In this document: positions 2,893 through 20,250 of the stretch, piece after piece
Numbering within the stretch: the stretch's first letter is position 1
How the letters are laid out: each line of letters opens with the position of its first letter
Source: [Clostridium] clostridioforme AGR2157
Lineage (GTDB): Bacteria; Bacillota; Clostridia; Lachnospirales; Lachnospiraceae
Direction: 5' to 3'
Assembly (NCBI RefSeq): GCF_000424325.1
Contig: NZ_AUJR01000048.1
Span: 1 to 35,383 of the forward strand
DNA: 35,383 nucleotides
Notes under the pieces: generated by a model
What the model was told of the DNA's origin: nothing
What the model saw: the letters and a program-made list of their open reading frames with translations, nothing else
Databases searched by the model: none
Program-made: the position numbers and the translations under genes

Positions 2893-2938
2893 ACAGGTGA
2901 ATAGCAGGAGGGAAGTGCTTCCTTTGGCTGTTACCTGT
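2893..2938 (-). terminator. Terminator-like inverted repeat of the DUF3298 gene
   Basis: ACAGGT (893-898 of this kilobase block) pairs with ACCTGT (2933-2938), and inside it GGAAG (2911-2915) pairs with CTTCC (2918-2922). Read on the minus strand the outer arm is followed by TTATTTTTAG. The 5' arm overlaps the stop codon at 2931. Confidence 0.5.
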
Positions 2939-3698
2939 CAGGACTATCTGTATCAAAGGGCAGCAGGAATTCCGGAATGCCGCTGGAGTAGGGGGCAATA
3001 TCGTACTGCTGGTAGTAAATGACAATCCCCCTTGGTGTCAGATAAAAATTTTCAGGATGAAAGGAATTGCGAAGGAGTTCAGGGTAGTTGTCAAAATAGG
3101 TGCCGGGATTGGCTTTCAGTCTCTCCGCAATTTCAAGCTGTATCCAATTCTGGATATCCTGGATATAGGAGGGATTGTCTTGATAAAAGTCGCTGAGTGT
3201 CATTTGTTTGCCGGACTCAGCATCCCATGTCTCAGACGTCCGCAGTGTGGAGCCATGAGCTCCGCCTGTAAATGTATACTGCTCCATATAGAGACTGAAA
3301 ATACAGTTCTGGTTATAAGTCACCACATAACTTATATTAAATTCATATGGAAAGAACGGGAAATTACGGACGCGGCTGTAATTTGCTTCTTCGGCTGCCT
3401 GGGGATACAATACGGTCCTGCAGTATTTGCCTTTTTCGGCTGCCTGTGTGGCATAATATTGGTTTATGGTCTGTATGGTCTCCTGGTTACAGGAAGCATC
3501 TAATTGCGGGTAACGAATCTGACAGTTAAGAACAATAGAATCCCGGTAATCCATCTGGTCTGCCAGGATATGTTGGGTTATGGTTTGCATAAAAGCCTCA
3601 TATGATATGTTTTTACAATATATGTGCATGGTTGGCCATGTATGATTGACTAATGGTTTCAGTGGGACATTCCTGTGTTTTGTTTTCCGTCTTGACAC
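2931..3698 (-). CDS. DUF4163/DUF3298 domain protein
   Basis: The 255-residue product has an N-terminal DUF4163-like part (residues about 50-125, with the IVLNCQIRYPQL strand) and a C-terminal DUF3298 part. Within the latter, TFTGGAHG (about 145-152), WDAESGKQMTLSDFY and the final YDIAPYSSGIPEFLLPF stretch are diagnostic. The fold occurs in PdaC and RsiV-type extracytoplasmic proteins, where it binds cell-wall material or lysozyme. Those usually have a signal anchor; none is visible here. The only long start is a GTG at 3696-3698, without a clear ribosome site and overlapping a forward promoter. Either the start lies further in (ATG at 3627-3629) or the N-terminus has been lost. Function is otherwise unknown. 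Confidence 0.7.
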   Translation of the reverse strand: MSRRKTKHRNVPLKPLVNHTWPTMHIYCKNISYEAFMQTITQHILADQMDYRDSIVLNCQIRYPQLDASCNQETIQTINQYYATQAAEKGKYCRTVLYPQAAEEANYSRVRNFPFFPYEFNISYVVTYNQNCIFSLYMEQYTFTGGAHGSTLRTSETWDAESGKQMTLSDFYQDNPSYIQDIQNWIQLEIAERLKANPGTYFDNYPELLRNSFHPENFYLTPRGIVIYYQQYDIAPYSSGIPEFLLPFDTDSPDR

Positions 3699-3720
3699 GA
3701 ACGTATGTTTGTGATATTAT
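3692..3720 (+). promoter_or_regulatory. Sigma-A promoter with an SOS operator in its spacer
   Basis: TTGACA (3692-3697) and TATTAT (3715-3720) are separated by exactly 17 nt. A LexA-type box fills the spacer. It should drive the small genes beginning at 3807. Confidence 0.8.
3698..3711 (+). promoter_or_regulatory. LexA (SOS) box 1
   Basis: CGAACGTATGTTTG fits the Gram-positive LexA/DinR consensus (CGAACRNRYGTTYG class) with a single imperfect half-site base. It lies between the -35 and -10 hexamers, the classic repressing position, and also touches the GTG start of the divergent DUF3298 gene. Confidence 0.7.
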
Positions 3721-3731
3721 AAGAACATAAA

Positions 3732-3745
3732 AGAACATATGTTCT
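3732..3745 (+). promoter_or_regulatory. LexA (SOS) box 2
   Basis: AGAACATATGTTCT is a perfect 14-bp palindrome containing the exact GAAC-N4-GTTC core of Bacillus/Clostridium LexA sites. It lies just downstream of the predicted transcription start, 34 bp centre to centre from box 1 (about three helical turns), so two LexA dimers could bind the same face. Confidence 0.8.
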
Positions 3746-3806
3746 CATGCGGAGCTGAGAGGGATAATCCATGAAGCAGAACATAAAATATATTGGAGGT
3801 AGCCAT

Positions 3807-4070
3807 ATGAAAATCACAAAGGACAATCTGAATGAAGTTTTATTTGAGAACCAGGATGCCAGGCTTTTGATTGAAGACGTCGTGACCCATACCAGCGCTA
3901 ACCTCTATTATTACCATGATATAGAGATAACGGTTCAGAAGGCACTGGATATCTGGCATAAGGCCCAGACTGCAGACGAGGAAGAGAGCGGATTTTACAG
4001 TGTGTCCTTCCTGGATTTTTCAAAGAAGCGGATGCCAGTGCCGACAGGTTTACAGCAAGCATTCTCATAG
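3807..4070 (+). CDS. Unrecognised 87-residue protein under a predicted SOS promoter
   Basis: I do not recognise this protein. It begins MKITKDNLNEVLFENQDARL, is acidic in the first half, and contains a THTSANLYYYHDIEITVQKALDIWHKA helix followed by SGFYSVSFLDFSKKR. No membrane segment or signal is seen. GGAGG at 3795-3799 lies 7 nt before the chosen ATG; an in-frame ATG at 3771 has no such site. Beyond the stop, two other frames stay open: one reads SWFFEDIFYKDRIFKAVFGN and ends near 4140, the other runs to the stop at 4193-4195. The present C-terminus (MPVPTGLQQAFS) may therefore be the product of a frameshift. The two LexA boxes upstream suggest induction by DNA damage. Confidence 0.5.
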   Translation: MKITKDNLNEVLFENQDARLLIEDVVTHTSANLYYYHDIEITVQKALDIWHKAQTADEEESGFYSVSFLDFSKKRMPVPTGLQQAFS

Positions 4071-4221
4071 CTGGTTTTTCGAGGACATATTTTACAAAGA
4101 CAGGATTTTTAAGGCCGTTTTTGGAAATGCATTCCGGCGCTGATCGATGTCTGTCACATAGGAGAATGGAAATCAAACAATACCTGACATCATGATAAAA
4201 CAGAAAGGTGGTTTTATAAAA

Positions 4222-4446
4222 ATGGAAAATTGTTGCAGGGTTAACCTGGAACAGGAGATGACTATTGAGAACCTATATTGTTTCATAAGGGCATCCCTGC
4301 AGGCATTACAGAACACCGGTGGATATGGGGAGGCGGATTTTGTATGTCCTCTCTGTGGAAGAAAGGCCCATATAAAGCGTTTGAAGGGCGAGATTTATAA
4401 TACAGGTGAGATTGAGTGCAGGTGTGGGTACTCGTTTCATTTTTAA
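4222..4446 (+). CDS. Small zinc-ribbon-like protein, function unknown
   Basis: The 74-residue product (MENCCRVNLEQEMTIENLYC onward) has a helical N-terminal half and a C-terminal pair of metal-binding knuckles, Cys42-x2-Cys45 (VCPLCG) and Cys66-x-Cys68 (ECRCG), with two beta-strand-like stretches between. That is a zinc-ribbon pattern, but the family is not recognised. AGGTGG at 4206-4211 precedes the ATG by 10 nt. An upstream in-frame ATG at 4192 overlaps the stop of the preceding open frame (ATGA), which would allow translational coupling and add 10 residues. It lies in the same transcript direction as the predicted SOS-controlled gene. Confidence 0.55.
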   Translation: MENCCRVNLEQEMTIENLYCFIRASLQALQNTGGYGEADFVCPLCGRKAHIKRLKGEIYNTGEIECRCGYSFHF

Positions 4447-4480
4447 AGGCAGACCGGTGGCTGATACGTGAATAAACTAG

Positions 4481-4503
4481 GCCGTCACTTTGCGGCGTTT
4501 TTT
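4481..4503 (+). terminator. Weak terminator before the SleB-like gene
   Basis: GCCG (4481-4484) and CGGC (4493-4496) can pair around an 8-nt loop, followed by G and six T residues. The stem is short, so termination is likely partial. Confidence 0.4.
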
Positions 4504-4628
4504 AACCAATAATTACCTTAAATATGTTTGGATTGCTAATTTTGGGACAGAATATAATAGAGAGCAAATGCCATGGGCAGTTCGCGGGTATCTGACTCAG
4601 GGCAGTTCAAACATTTTAAGGAGTAAAT

Positions 4629-5324
4629 ATGAAACGAATCGTTATATTGGGAGCCATGGCCTTGGCCATATCACTGGCAGTGCCTATGACAGCGCAGGCA
4701 GAAGAAAACGGGACAGATATGGTACTCGCCGCACAGGGTGTGGTTAATGAATTAAAGACCGCTCTTCGGGATGCAGCCCATAAGACAATCAAATTTGCCA
4801 ATCAGGACGGAATCAATATTTATAAGGAACCCAGCACAGAGGCAGTGGTTTTGGACCAGGCATTACTGAATACATCCTTTGAGGTTTTGGGGGAATACGG
4901 CGATTGGTCAATGATAACAACAGAGGCAGGACATGCATATATTGAAACAAAATGTCTCTCAGGTATTGAGATAAGGCATCCTTCTTATTCCGAAGAGGAC
5001 CTTTATATACTGGCTCATGTAATCTGCGGCGAGGCGCAGAACTGCCCGGACGATGAGCAGCTGCTGGTGGGCTCCGTGGTATTGAACCGGGTGAATCATC
5101 CCCGGTTTCCCGGTACAATCAAGGGTGTTGTATTTGCACCGGGGCAGTATTCCTGCACCAGGGATGGAAATTACTACCGTGAACCCACAGCAAGCAATTG
5201 GGCCAATGCAAAGTGGCTTCTGGAAAATGGAAGTATCTTGCCGAGGAATGTGGTCTGGCAGTCAGGAGGCAGACAGGGCAGGGGAGAATACCTGAGGACC
5301 AGATATCACAGTTATTGTTATTGA
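4629..5324 (+). CDS. Secreted SleB-like cell-wall hydrolase with an SH3-like domain
   Basis: The 231-residue product starts with a Sec signal peptide (MKRIVILGAMALAISLAVPM, cleavage after TAQA). Residues about 55-110 look like a bacterial SH3 domain (NIYKEPSTEAVVLDQ ... WSMITTEAGHAYIETKCL). Residues about 122-231 are a SleB/CwlJ-type hydrolase domain: YILAHVICGEAQ carries the expected catalytic Glu135, then GSVVLNRVNHPRFPGTI, GQYSCTRDG and the terminal YHSYCY. Relatives are lytic transglycosylases acting on cortex or vegetative peptidoglycan. The signal and the SH3 module favour a role outside the cell. AAGGAG lies 5 nt before the ATG, and a TATAAT at 4553-4558 may belong to its promoter. It is followed by a bidirectional terminator shared with the tRNA. 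Confidence 0.85.
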   Translation: MKRIVILGAMALAISLAVPMTAQAEENGTDMVLAAQGVVNELKTALRDAAHKTIKFANQDGINIYKEPSTEAVVLDQALLNTSFEVLGEYGDWSMITTEAGHAYIETKCLSGIEIRHPSYSEEDLYILAHVICGEAQNCPDDEQLLVGSVVLNRVNHPRFPGTIKGVVFAPGQYSCTRDGNYYREPTASNWANAKWLLENGSILPRNVVWQSGGRQGRGEYLRTRYHSYCY

Positions 5325-5380
5325 TGGCAGGTGGAATACCAGTGAAAGCCTCATATTTACGCATTTTCAGGTATATACAC

Positions 5381-5413
5381 AAAAATGGCCCTCCGTACTG
5401 GAGCGCCATTTTT
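5381..5413. terminator. Bidirectional terminator between sleB-like gene and tRNA-Ala
   Basis: AAAAATGGC (5381-5389) pairs with GCCATTTTT (5405-5413), and the inner CTCC with GGAG, with one unpaired C in each arm. There are A/T runs on both sides, so it can serve the forward hydrolase gene and the reverse tRNA gene. Confidence 0.85.
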
Positions 5414-5441
5414 GTATTAAAGTTTGTCGGTAGATATTCAA

Positions 5442-5514
5442 TGGAGCATACGGGATTCGAACCCGTGACCTCCACACTGCCAGTGTGGCGCGCTCCCAGC
5501 TGCGCTAATGCCCC
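5442..5514 (-). tRNA. tRNA-Ala (anticodon GGC)
   Basis: The minus strand folds as a 73-nt cloverleaf. The acceptor is GGGGCAT with ATGCTCC, followed by discriminator A73. The D arm contains AGCTGGGAG, the anticodon stem is CCACA/TGTGG with loop CTGGCAG and anticodon GGC, and the T arm contains GGTTCGAATCC. The acceptor has the G3-U70 pair that marks alanine tRNAs. CCA is not encoded beyond the discriminator. It reads GCC codons. It stands alone, with its own promoter and a terminator shared with the convergent gene. Confidence 0.95.
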
Positions 5515-5525
5515 AACACTCGTAG

Positions 5526-5554
5526 ATAATACCATAAATCCAGATGAAAATCAA
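5526..5554 (-). promoter_or_regulatory. Promoter of tRNA-Ala
   Basis: On the minus strand TTGATT (5549-5554) and TATTAT (5526-5531) are 17 nt apart, and the -10 box ends 11 nt before the first tRNA base. Confidence 0.8.
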
Positions 5555-5737
5555 GTACTATTTTTTTAATTATTCATACTTTTTGAAAATTCCGTATAAA
5601 ATGTTAAATCTCCCGCTTTTAATCCTTAAGGAATTTTATTCTTAATTTAGCTTCTGCTCAAACTTTAGTCACAATTTTCATGTATACTCTTTTTCAACAA
5701 GGAATTACTCCTTTTGACATAGATTTCTCTCATACTC

Positions 5738-18631: not shown

Positions 18632-18867
18632 CTGCTGTTGATGGGAGACGTAGATATTTACAAAATGTGGGAGAAATTAATGAAATTGTAACAAAAAAGT
18701 TATATTTTATATACAAAACAGGGAGAATATGGTATTATAGTGGGAACGAACGGATGTTTATGTCTGATTCACTGAACTTACAGGCATTTGCCTTTTTAAT
18801 ATAGATTAAGAATGGAAATGGGAATTTCCAGGAATCATAATATTATTGGGAAAGACAGAGGTTACGT

Positions 18868-20250
18868 ATGAAAAGGTGGATAGCAGCAGGCATATTAATC
18901 CTTGCATTGACAGGATGTTCCCGGTATGAACCGACAAAGGAGATGACCAGGTCCCAGGAGGAGGCCATGCAGTCTGAGGCAGCAGAGGCGCAGACCGGGC
19001 AGGAGACCCAGGAGGCAGAGGCGGCTGATTCGGAGGTCATTACCATTTCCTCATATCCGCCCAGGAACCCGGTGAAGGTAAAGGGCATCTATGTGTCCGC
19101 CTATGTGGCCGGTACCGGCTGTATGATGGATAAAATCATTGAGGAGATTGACAGGACGGAGCTCAATGCAGTGGTCATTGATGTAAAGGACGACCAGGGA
19201 AGGATTACCTATGCCATGGATTCCCCTACTGTGAATGAGATAGGGGCCTGCCAGGTTTTTATCCAGGACATGCCGGCGCTTATGGCAAAGCTTAAGGAGC
19301 ATGGAATCTATACTATAGCCAGGGTGGTGGCCTTCAGGGACCCTTATCTTGCGGAACAGAAGCCGCAGTGGAGCCTTCACGTGGCGGATGACAAGATTTA
19401 CCGGGATAATAAGGGCCTTGCATGGGTAAATCCCTATAAGAAGGAAGTCTGGGATTATCTGGTCGAGGTGGGGAAAAAGGCAGGCGAGGCGGGATTTGAC
19501 GAGATTCAGTTCGATTACATCCGGTTTGCCGTGGACAGGACCATGAATGACGTTGTCTTTGACGACGCAGATACCCAGGGGCATAATAAGACCCAGGCAA
19601 TTACGGAATTCATAAGCTATGCACATGATGAGCTGGCAAAGGAGGGACTCTTTGTGTCGGCTGACGTATTTGGCACCATCATGCGCAGCGAGGAGGATGC
19701 GGCTGCCGTAGGCCAGGAATACGAGGACATGGCGGAGCAGCTGGATTATATATGTCCTATGATTTATCCATCCCACTATGGGCCGGGAAATTTTGGAATA
19801 GAGTATCCAGATACCCAGCCTTATGATACAATATTAAATGCATTGAATGGTTCCAGGGAGCTTCTGGCCGCTTCCGCAAAGGATGACACGCCTCAGGCAG
19901 TGGTAAGGCCATGGCTTCAGGACTTTACGGCGTCCTATCTGGAACATTATATTAAATATGGCGATGAACAGGTGAGGCAGCAGATACAGGCTGTCTACGA
20001 TGCCGGCTATGACCAGTGGATTCTCTGGGATGCAGGGGTCAGCTATCACTACGGCGGGCTGCTGACTCCGGAGGAAGCAGCGGAAGAGGACGAGCGTATA
20101 GCCCAGTCCAGGGCAGCGTCGGAGACGGAGGGGGCCCCGGCGGAGAACGTCCCGTCAGAGAATGTCCCAGTGGAGAATGCCCCTGCGGACAACATCCCGG
20201 CGGAGAACGTCCCGTCAGAGAATGTCCCGCCGGCAAGCGGCGCCCGGTAA
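18868..20250 (+). CDS. Lipoprotein with a DUF4015-type putative glycoside hydrolase domain
   Basis: The 460-residue product starts with a lipoprotein signal peptide; the lipobox LTGC places the lipidated Cys at residue 17. An acidic linker follows (about 18-60). Residues about 65-400 match the DUF4015 TIM-barrel: VKGIYVSAYVAG, LNAVVIDVKDDQGRITY, YTIARVVAFRDP, FDEIQFDYIRFAVD, DYICPMIYPSHYG and QWILWDAGVSYH. The conserved Asp and Glu on these strands resemble a glycosidase active site, but the substrate is unknown; a surface-polysaccharide role is plausible. The C-terminal tail is a repeat of five residues (ENVPS type). A weak AGAGG precedes the ATG. uvrC follows after 58 nt. Confidence 0.85.
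   Translation: MKRWIAAGILILALTGCSRYEPTKEMTRSQEEAMQSEAAEAQTGQETQEAEAADSEVITISSYPPRNPVKVKGIYVSAYVAGTGCMMDKIIEEIDRTELNAVVIDVKDDQGRITYAMDSPTVNEIGACQVFIQDMPALMAKLKEHGIYTIARVVAFRDPYLAEQKPQWSLHVADDKIYRDNKGLAWVNPYKKEVWDYLVEVGKKAGEAGFDEIQFDYIRFAVDRTMNDVVFDDADTQGHNKTQAITEFISYAHDELAKEGLFVSADVFGTIMRSEEDAAAVGQEYEDMAEQLDYICPMIYPSHYGPGNFGIEYPDTQPYDTILNALNGSRELLAASAKDDTPQAVVRPWLQDFTASYLEHYIKYGDEQVRQQIQAVYDAGYDQWILWDAGVSYHYGGLLTPEEAAEEDERIAQSRAASETEGAPAENVPSENVPVENAPADNIPAENVPSENVPPASGAR
20143..20232 (+). repeat. Six 15-bp tandem repeats coding for a Glu-Asn-Val-Pro tail
   Basis: Six consecutive 15-bp units encode ENVPS, ENVPV, ENAPA, DNIPA, ENVPS and ENVPP. Units 1-2 and 5-6 are almost identical at the DNA level, including a stretch over 30 bp repeated 60 bp apart, suggesting duplication by slippage. 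The tail lies at the extreme C-terminus of the surface lipoprotein. Confidence 0.9.

Follow-up and report, generated by a model that had tools for sequence, protein, structure and literature searches.

The locus described here belongs to a contig of [Clostridium] clostridioforme AGR2157 (NZ_AUJR01000048.1) of which the whole stretch analysed, 35,383 nucleotides, is referred to as the window. It comprises a promoter with two LexA boxes, followed on the same strand by two small open reading frames, here called gene 1 and gene 2. The promoter, TTGACA-N17-TATTAT, spans 3692-3720 (+), with the -35 hexamer TTGACA at 3692-3697 and, after a spacer of 17 nt, the -10 hexamer TATTAT, with a TG in front of it, at 3715-3720, both being read directly and returned by a promoter scan. 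Scoring 11 matches out of 12, the hexamers rank first among the seven sigma-70-like sites that the scan finds in 2900-5600, where 5.7 are expected from shuffling. LexA box 1, CGAACGTATGTTTG, lies within the spacer at 3698-3711 (+), and box 2, the perfect palindrome AGAACATATGTTCT, at 3732-3745 (+), 34 bp further on from start to start; both are identified by direct reading, by a LexA matrix and by comparison of homologue loci. Promoter, boxes, palindrome and 34-bp distance are, on direct reading, present exactly as the original prediction described them. Transcription would start near 3727, which would place box 2 at about +6 to +19. Gene 1 (3807-4070, +) encodes an acidic protein of 87 aa with the C-terminus ...LQQAFS, its start being placed by the RBS GGAGG (3795-3799, +, read directly) and by the alignment of homologues. 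Gene 2 (4222-4446, +) is an open reading frame for a protein of 74 aa with a zinc-ribbon-like half, CPLC...CRC. A terminator scan gives no terminator-like site between the two genes and, after gene 2, a weak hairpin of five pairs with a T-run (4481-4503, +); it returns three sites against 2.0 expected, another candidate lying inside gene 2 (4413-4434).

The divergent PdaC/DUF3298 gene (2931-3629, -; PF13739 and PF11738) is placed outside this SOS unit. Box 1 had been thought to cover its start as well, but the GTG at 3698 is merely the longest reading of the frame (255 aa), and a start under box 1 is not supported by the shorter orthologous frames, the longest of which have 226-233 aa; the equivalent and likely start here lies near 3629 (232 aa), about 68 bp from box 1. 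Elsewhere in the window, a tRNA-Ala (GGC) at 5441-5515 (-), downstream of a cell-wall hydrolase gene, is the sole Rfam match at gathering thresholds, and a weaker LexA-like site (18747-18760, score 12.4) is found in the intergenic region before a lipoprotein-like ORF at 18868.

The LexA matrix was built from six LexA-type sites of the same genome, with the two boxes of the window excluded: three sites at lexA and a yneA-like gene, and one each upstream of recA, uvrB and a gene for a Y-family polymerase (polY, on another contig, C1, with its own LexA box). Among these control genes lexA was named by search and the yneA-like gene by a LysM match, while the translations served to name RecA, UvrB and the polymerase by eye, the polymerase also by its 54% identity to that of the phage-like contig L052 described below. 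The uvrB site is the least certain control, as it lies about 0.6 kb before uvrB and adjoins a short uvrB-like fragment. Box 2 and box 1, scoring 21.0 and 16.3, are the top two sites on the + strand of the window, the next reaching 12.4, and the six control sites score 14.3-19.8, or 11.0-18.6 with each left out. The loose LexA pattern is not enriched genome-wide (29 matches against 27 for the reversed control) and, with two mismatches, is at chance level in the window (27 against 33 expected), so that single matches mean little and the evidence for the boxes therefore rests on their pairing, their placement on the promoter and their conservation. With a predicted LexA operator overlapping the promoter, as in members of the LexA (SOS) regulon, SOS control of this promoter is, as a reading of the sequence, well supported.

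Paired or multiple LexA-type sites occur elsewhere in the same genome (G000) at lexA and the yneA-like gene, and before a radical-SAM/HhH gene. The latter pair (G000:C10:98252-98322; L090 352-424), 59 bp apart, precedes the gene of a radical-SAM protein with helix-hairpin-helix motifs, which is likely to be another SOS gene of this genome. Of two further LexA-type sites, 622 bp apart (G000:C2:103275 and 103897; L091), one stands where a LytTR regulator gene starts and the other where a sigma-70 region 4 gene does. At uvrB (L044, G000:C34, 900-1530, -) the uvrB-like fragment separates, by eye, the full uvrB frame from the LexA-type site, an arrangement that looks as if the promoter region of uvrB had been interrupted.

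Removal of duplicates left 24 distinct homologue loci, 22 of them with 250 bp of upstream DNA. Dropped before counting were L001 and L054, which are the window itself, L002, L003, L005-L011, L013 and L056, which repeat loci already present on the genome contigs, and L057, which duplicates L031; L018 and L053, whose upstream DNA is too short for counting boxes, were kept among the 24 for the protein statistics. Two boxes are found within 250 bp upstream in 21 of the 22 loci, at a spacing of 26-37 bp in 18 of them and 128 or 171 bp apart in L030, L031 and L055, which we take to be Lacrimispora-type. At the 22nd locus, L052, a lexA gene intervenes between gene 1 and an upstream box pair with a spacing of 36 bp. 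Conservation of the boxes in relatives, one of the tests by which the original prediction was to stand or fall, is thus what is observed. A hexamer pair of the form TTGAC-N-N17-TA that contains, overlaps or abuts box 1 is present at 19 of the 22 loci (18 by pattern and L052 by direct reading; L055 is not among the pattern-read loci), and pattern reading finds none at L030 and L031. Box 1 itself is retained across genera, with shifts of a few bases in its position within the spacer. As controls, box pairs 20-45 bp apart occur in three of 4600 shuffled upstream regions and three times in 190,802 further bases from these loci, one of the latter being the lexA promoter of L052. A 22-base module, TTGACNCGAACNNNNGTTYGTG, has eight occurrences in the 17 genomes of the genus and none in the reversed control; seven stand before gene 1 and one before a second lexA, and the module misses the gene 1 of genome G004, whose box 1 is a variant. 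In viral contigs the promoter module is found at seven loci, with the second box and the gene array described below only on the L052 contig. As the neighbouring genes at gene 1 loci vary between lineages, promoter and gene 1 together are the conserved unit. In L030 and L031 a hairpin with a T-rich tail, perhaps an attenuator, is seen by eye in the leader between the far and the near LexA box.

The gene 1 family has nothing above cut-off in Pfam, NCBIfam or PHROGs, nor has the window protein in PADLOC, and the PDB holds no clear relative (one match, E 0.42). Gene 1 thus appears to be the founder of a new, so far unnamed protein family, and the earlier statement that the genes behind the promoter come from no known SOS family agrees with the lack of a profile match above cut-off. 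The proteins have 78-93 aa and a pI of 4.4-5.5 in all 24 members, and in none of the 24 was a membrane segment found, the highest 19-residue mean hydropathy being 1.17. In an alignment of 19 sequences, 22 columns are invariant, all of them in the first 56 residues, the remainder being variable. The C-terminus is of the form [ACFYLVIM][ASC] in 18 of 24 members against three of 100 flanking ORFs of at least 200 aa, a pattern that was defined after the family had been seen, on members that are related and not independent and against control ORFs that were called mechanically; any small or non-polar C-terminal residue is found in 23 of 24 members and in 51 of the 100 control ORFs. Such tails presumably resemble those that mark proteins for SsrA/ClpXP degradation. 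The dN/dS values of gene 1, 0.08-0.19 for six pairs among four close relatives, indicate that it is under purifying selection.

Gene 1 is present in eight of 61 genomes, all eight being among the 17 of the window's own genus, in six of 397 genomes of the family, in five of 392 of the order, one of which is a weak partial match that was set aside (L058, 40 residues, E 0.0093), and in two of 391 of the class; the draws overlap, and the window's genome is counted in every one of them. Within the genomes searched, clear matches are confined to the window's own family. Named genome contigs hold 18 gene 1 loci, including some of [Clostridium] asparagiforme, [Clostridium] citroniae, Hungatella and [Clostridium] aerotolerans, relatives that would point to Enterocloster within the Lachnospiraceae. 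These copies lie among varied genes, some of them chromosomal by eye (glnS, radA), and no partner gene is consistent across the chromosomal loci. Two loci, L052 and L053, are on viral contigs, and at E <=0.01 neither 50,697 phage records nor 72,556 plasmid records gave a match. Among the open-access literature matches listed, no title or opening of an abstract treats this family.

Gene 2 carries a CxxC...CxC half and scores far below the curated Pfam cut-offs (15.7 bits against 28.6 for Lar, 16.1 against 29.8 for Elf1) and below that of NCBIfam Lar (17.6 against 39.6). It adjoins gene 1 in five chromosomal loci, the window included, and its dN/dS values, again for six pairs among four close relatives, are 0.04-0.15. 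Double-box promoters also precede gene 2 without gene 1 in two genomes. In G009 gene 2 stands after a second lexA that has a double-box promoter, and in G011 it follows a zinc-ribbon-like ORF with such a promoter, gene 1 lying elsewhere on the same contig with its own box pair. Taken together, the loci suggest that gene 1 is the core and gene 2 an optional partner. The gene 2 copy behind the second lexA of G009 (L068 3936-5020, G009:C69) appears to change frame, and another copy lies about 2.5 kb further. In G011 the double-box promoter, a different zinc-ribbon-like ORF and gene 2 follow each other at L069 2102-2780; a sequence repeat common to L069 and the separate gene 1 locus L006, together with a transposase-like ORF at L006 (by eye), suggests that the gene 1/gene 2 pair of this genome was split.

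A different arrangement is found on the two phage-like contigs. In L052 a double LexA-box promoter, lexA, an ORF of 53 aa, gene 1, a Y-family polymerase gene, an ORF of 104 aa and gene 2 follow each other on one strand, so that on this contig lexA and the polymerase gene would stand under one LexA promoter. The lexA product has LexA and S24 domains and is 80.5% identical to LexA of the window's genome, and the polymerase has IMS domains and is 54% identical to the polymerase of that genome. L053 retains a remnant, with gene 1, fragments of the polymerase gene and of the 104-aa ORF, and gene 2. Tail-fibre-like ORFs (by eye) adjoin the array in L053 and lie about 7 kb from it on the L052 contig. 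The array with gene 1 is thus known from two related phage-like contigs, one of them decayed. It is absent from the window, where there is no convincing polymerase remnant between genes 1 and 2, and no relative of the L052 polymerase was found near gene 1 in the window or in the up to 4 kb covered on each side at the 18 genome-contig loci. Nor was a gene 1 relative found, at E <=0.1, in the polymerase-bearing records L095, L096 and L100-L106 or in the pattern loci L119-L124. L095 alone among those records has a gene 2 relative (38% over 50 residues, E 4e-9); this viral contig also carries a LexA-type box, the polymerase, an SRAP gene and, at 103 aa, a relative of the 104-aa ORF. That the polymerases already have another small neighbour in the 104-aa ORF speaks against gene 1 as their accessory; this ORF has no Pfam match and, at a guess from its position, may be ImuB-C. 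In the viral contigs the window's gene 2 gave eight pattern stretches, none of which was confirmed, while the gene 2 of L052 as query matched on the L052 and L053 contigs only. At both ends the acidic 53-aa ORF (L052 1215-1376) overlaps its neighbours, the end of lexA on one side and the beginning of gene 1 on the other, an arrangement suggestive of translational coupling. A small ORF family beginning MARGVRKTP... precedes, by eye, gene 1 in L030 and L031 and the lexA array in L052 (262-507), which hints at a shared mobile-element context.

Within the genus, a polymerase at least 55% identical to the LexA-box polY of the window's genome is present in all eight genomes with gene 1 and in one of the nine without it (G006). 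At a 50% cut two of the nine have one, G008 being borderline at 52%, and at a 60% cut the counts are seven of eight and one of nine. The hypergeometric tail is 0.0004, or 0.002 if G008 counts and 0.003 at the 60% cut, figures for which the cut-offs were chosen after the list had been seen and which are confounded by relatedness and by the size and completeness of the genomes; only the polY of the window's genome was examined for a LexA box.

The promoter with its boxes, their conservation, the purifying selection and the array can be read from the DNA itself, and the following account builds on them. Two LexA dimers would repress the promoter, the one bound to the -35/-10 spacer blocking RNA polymerase and the other, just past the start, adding a roadblock near +6 to +19, and the two boxes together should give a tighter and later release than one box. 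On DNA damage, RecA-triggered cleavage of LexA would lift this repression and yield a short transcript covering both genes. Such LexA repression and damage induction we regard as very probable. Gene 1 would then be a small, acidic, soluble SOS protein made in a pulse and, given its probable C-terminal degradation tail, would act briefly and be gone once the damage is repaired; a short half-life is rather probable. As to function, gene 1 may be an accessory or regulator of damage-induced translesion synthesis and gene 2 a zinc-ribbon partner binding nucleic acid or protein. This role appears the most likely because a phage-borne array brings both proteins together with lexA, a Y-family polymerase and the 104-aa ORF, and SOS mutagenesis or its control would be preferred over a plain toxin in view of this company in L052 and L053 and of the yneA-like gene, which could already serve as a division brake. 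A part for gene 1 in mutagenesis is nevertheless put forward tentatively, and the account as a whole, of a double-LexA-repressed, short-lived SOS accessory or regulator of damage-induced mutagenesis, may equally well prove right or wrong. In a bolder version, which strikes us as rather doubtful, gene 1 would act in SOS mutagenesis as a small subunit or gatekeeper of a new type, with no relation to UmuD, YolD and ImuB-C, spread by phages in lexA-gene 1-polymerase-gene 2 cassettes and standing alone and double-locked on gut clostridial chromosomes.

Several other explanations have to be weighed. The least credible is that the boxes match by chance: genome and window do hold the loose LexA pattern no more often than expected, but the pairing, so rare in shuffled regions, and its conservation across genera lead us to reject this possibility as negligible. 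Gene 1 could instead be a feedback factor that binds RecA filaments or LexA in the manner of DinI and so tunes the length of the response, as its place between lexA and the polymerase in L052 would allow and as would suit a small, acidic protein with no membrane segment and a probable rapid turnover. However, acidity is common among proteins, and the DinI domain is not among the five families matched by any of 19 gene 1 members at E <=1 (a search whose filters drop most matches above 0.1), so that we hold such a factor to be unlikely.

Also unlikely, and slightly more so, is a factor that arrests growth or division, or is otherwise toxic, and hence needs the double lock. The SOS division inhibitors YneA, SosA and SulA are small and LexA-controlled, and gene 1 is likewise small, apparently under LexA control and probably short-lived. 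The chromosomal loci without a consistent partner gene, the probable degradation tail and the two operators would suit such a factor; the colicin E8 promoter offers an experimental parallel in being bound by two LexA dimers (PMC4482635), but its sites overlap, whereas those of the gene 1 promoter lie 34 bp apart on either side of the predicted start. Against this stand the hydropathy of gene 1, with no membrane segment at a maximum of 1.17, the failure to find LysM by Pfam in 19 members, and the presence in the genome of a separate, LysM-bearing yneA-like gene already beside lexA, with LexA-type sites between them; moreover, a site pair precedes the radical-SAM/HhH gene as well. Genes 1 and 2 might finally be phage cargo, serving a prophage, for instance by altering host LexA control or aiding replication at induction, and later domesticated by the host. 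The copies that accompany lexA near tail-fibre-like ORFs on phage-like contigs, and the same small ORF family in front of the locus in L052 and in L030/L031, speak for this, yet the purifying selection on gene 1, the genome-contig copies among varied and partly chromosomal genes, and the large phage and plasmid collections free of a gene 1 match at E <=0.01 make it quite improbable.

For induction experiments, a study of prophages in Clostridium clostridioforme LM41 counsels caution, since mitomycin C and two fluoroquinolones are reported not to have induced them under the conditions used (PMC11318856). Among the matches listed, little literature concerns damage-induced mutagenesis in this group of gut bacteria. 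If the preferred account of an SOS accessory or regulator of mutagenesis is true, a conserved, double-locked and short-lived SOS family, travelling with lexA and an error-prone polymerase, would offer a new handle on DNA-damage tolerance and stress mutation in commensals.

Compared with known systems, the operator type at the gene 1 promoter is that of the Firmicutes LexA/SOS regulon, whose operators read GAACN4GTTC/T and of which lexA, recA and uvrB of C. difficile carry sites; in contrast, the part of that regulon's description available here names no protein like gene 1 (PMC4234289). The array of L052 resembles the published lexA-imuB-C-polY operons and clostridial polY/ImuB-C pairs (PMC6511836) in having lexA, a Y-family polymerase and a small downstream ORF, but differs in the addition of genes 1 and 2, while in the window neither lexA nor a polymerase accompanies these two genes. 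Near SOS polymerases, SRAP and zinc-ribbon proteins have also been described (PMC3765255). With the polymerase partners YolD and UmuD, gene 1 shares its small size, its apparent control by a LexA box and, in L052, its place beside a Y-family polymerase; it differs from them in lacking any Pfam relationship, neither YolD (PF08863) nor the S24 peptidase being among the five families matched by 19 members at E <=1, and in not standing beside a polymerase at the 18 genome-contig loci. The locus appears to hold a genuine promoter of the SOS type, whose double operator is unusual and conserved, in front of what is probably a new family of proteins with a link to a mobile mutagenesis array.
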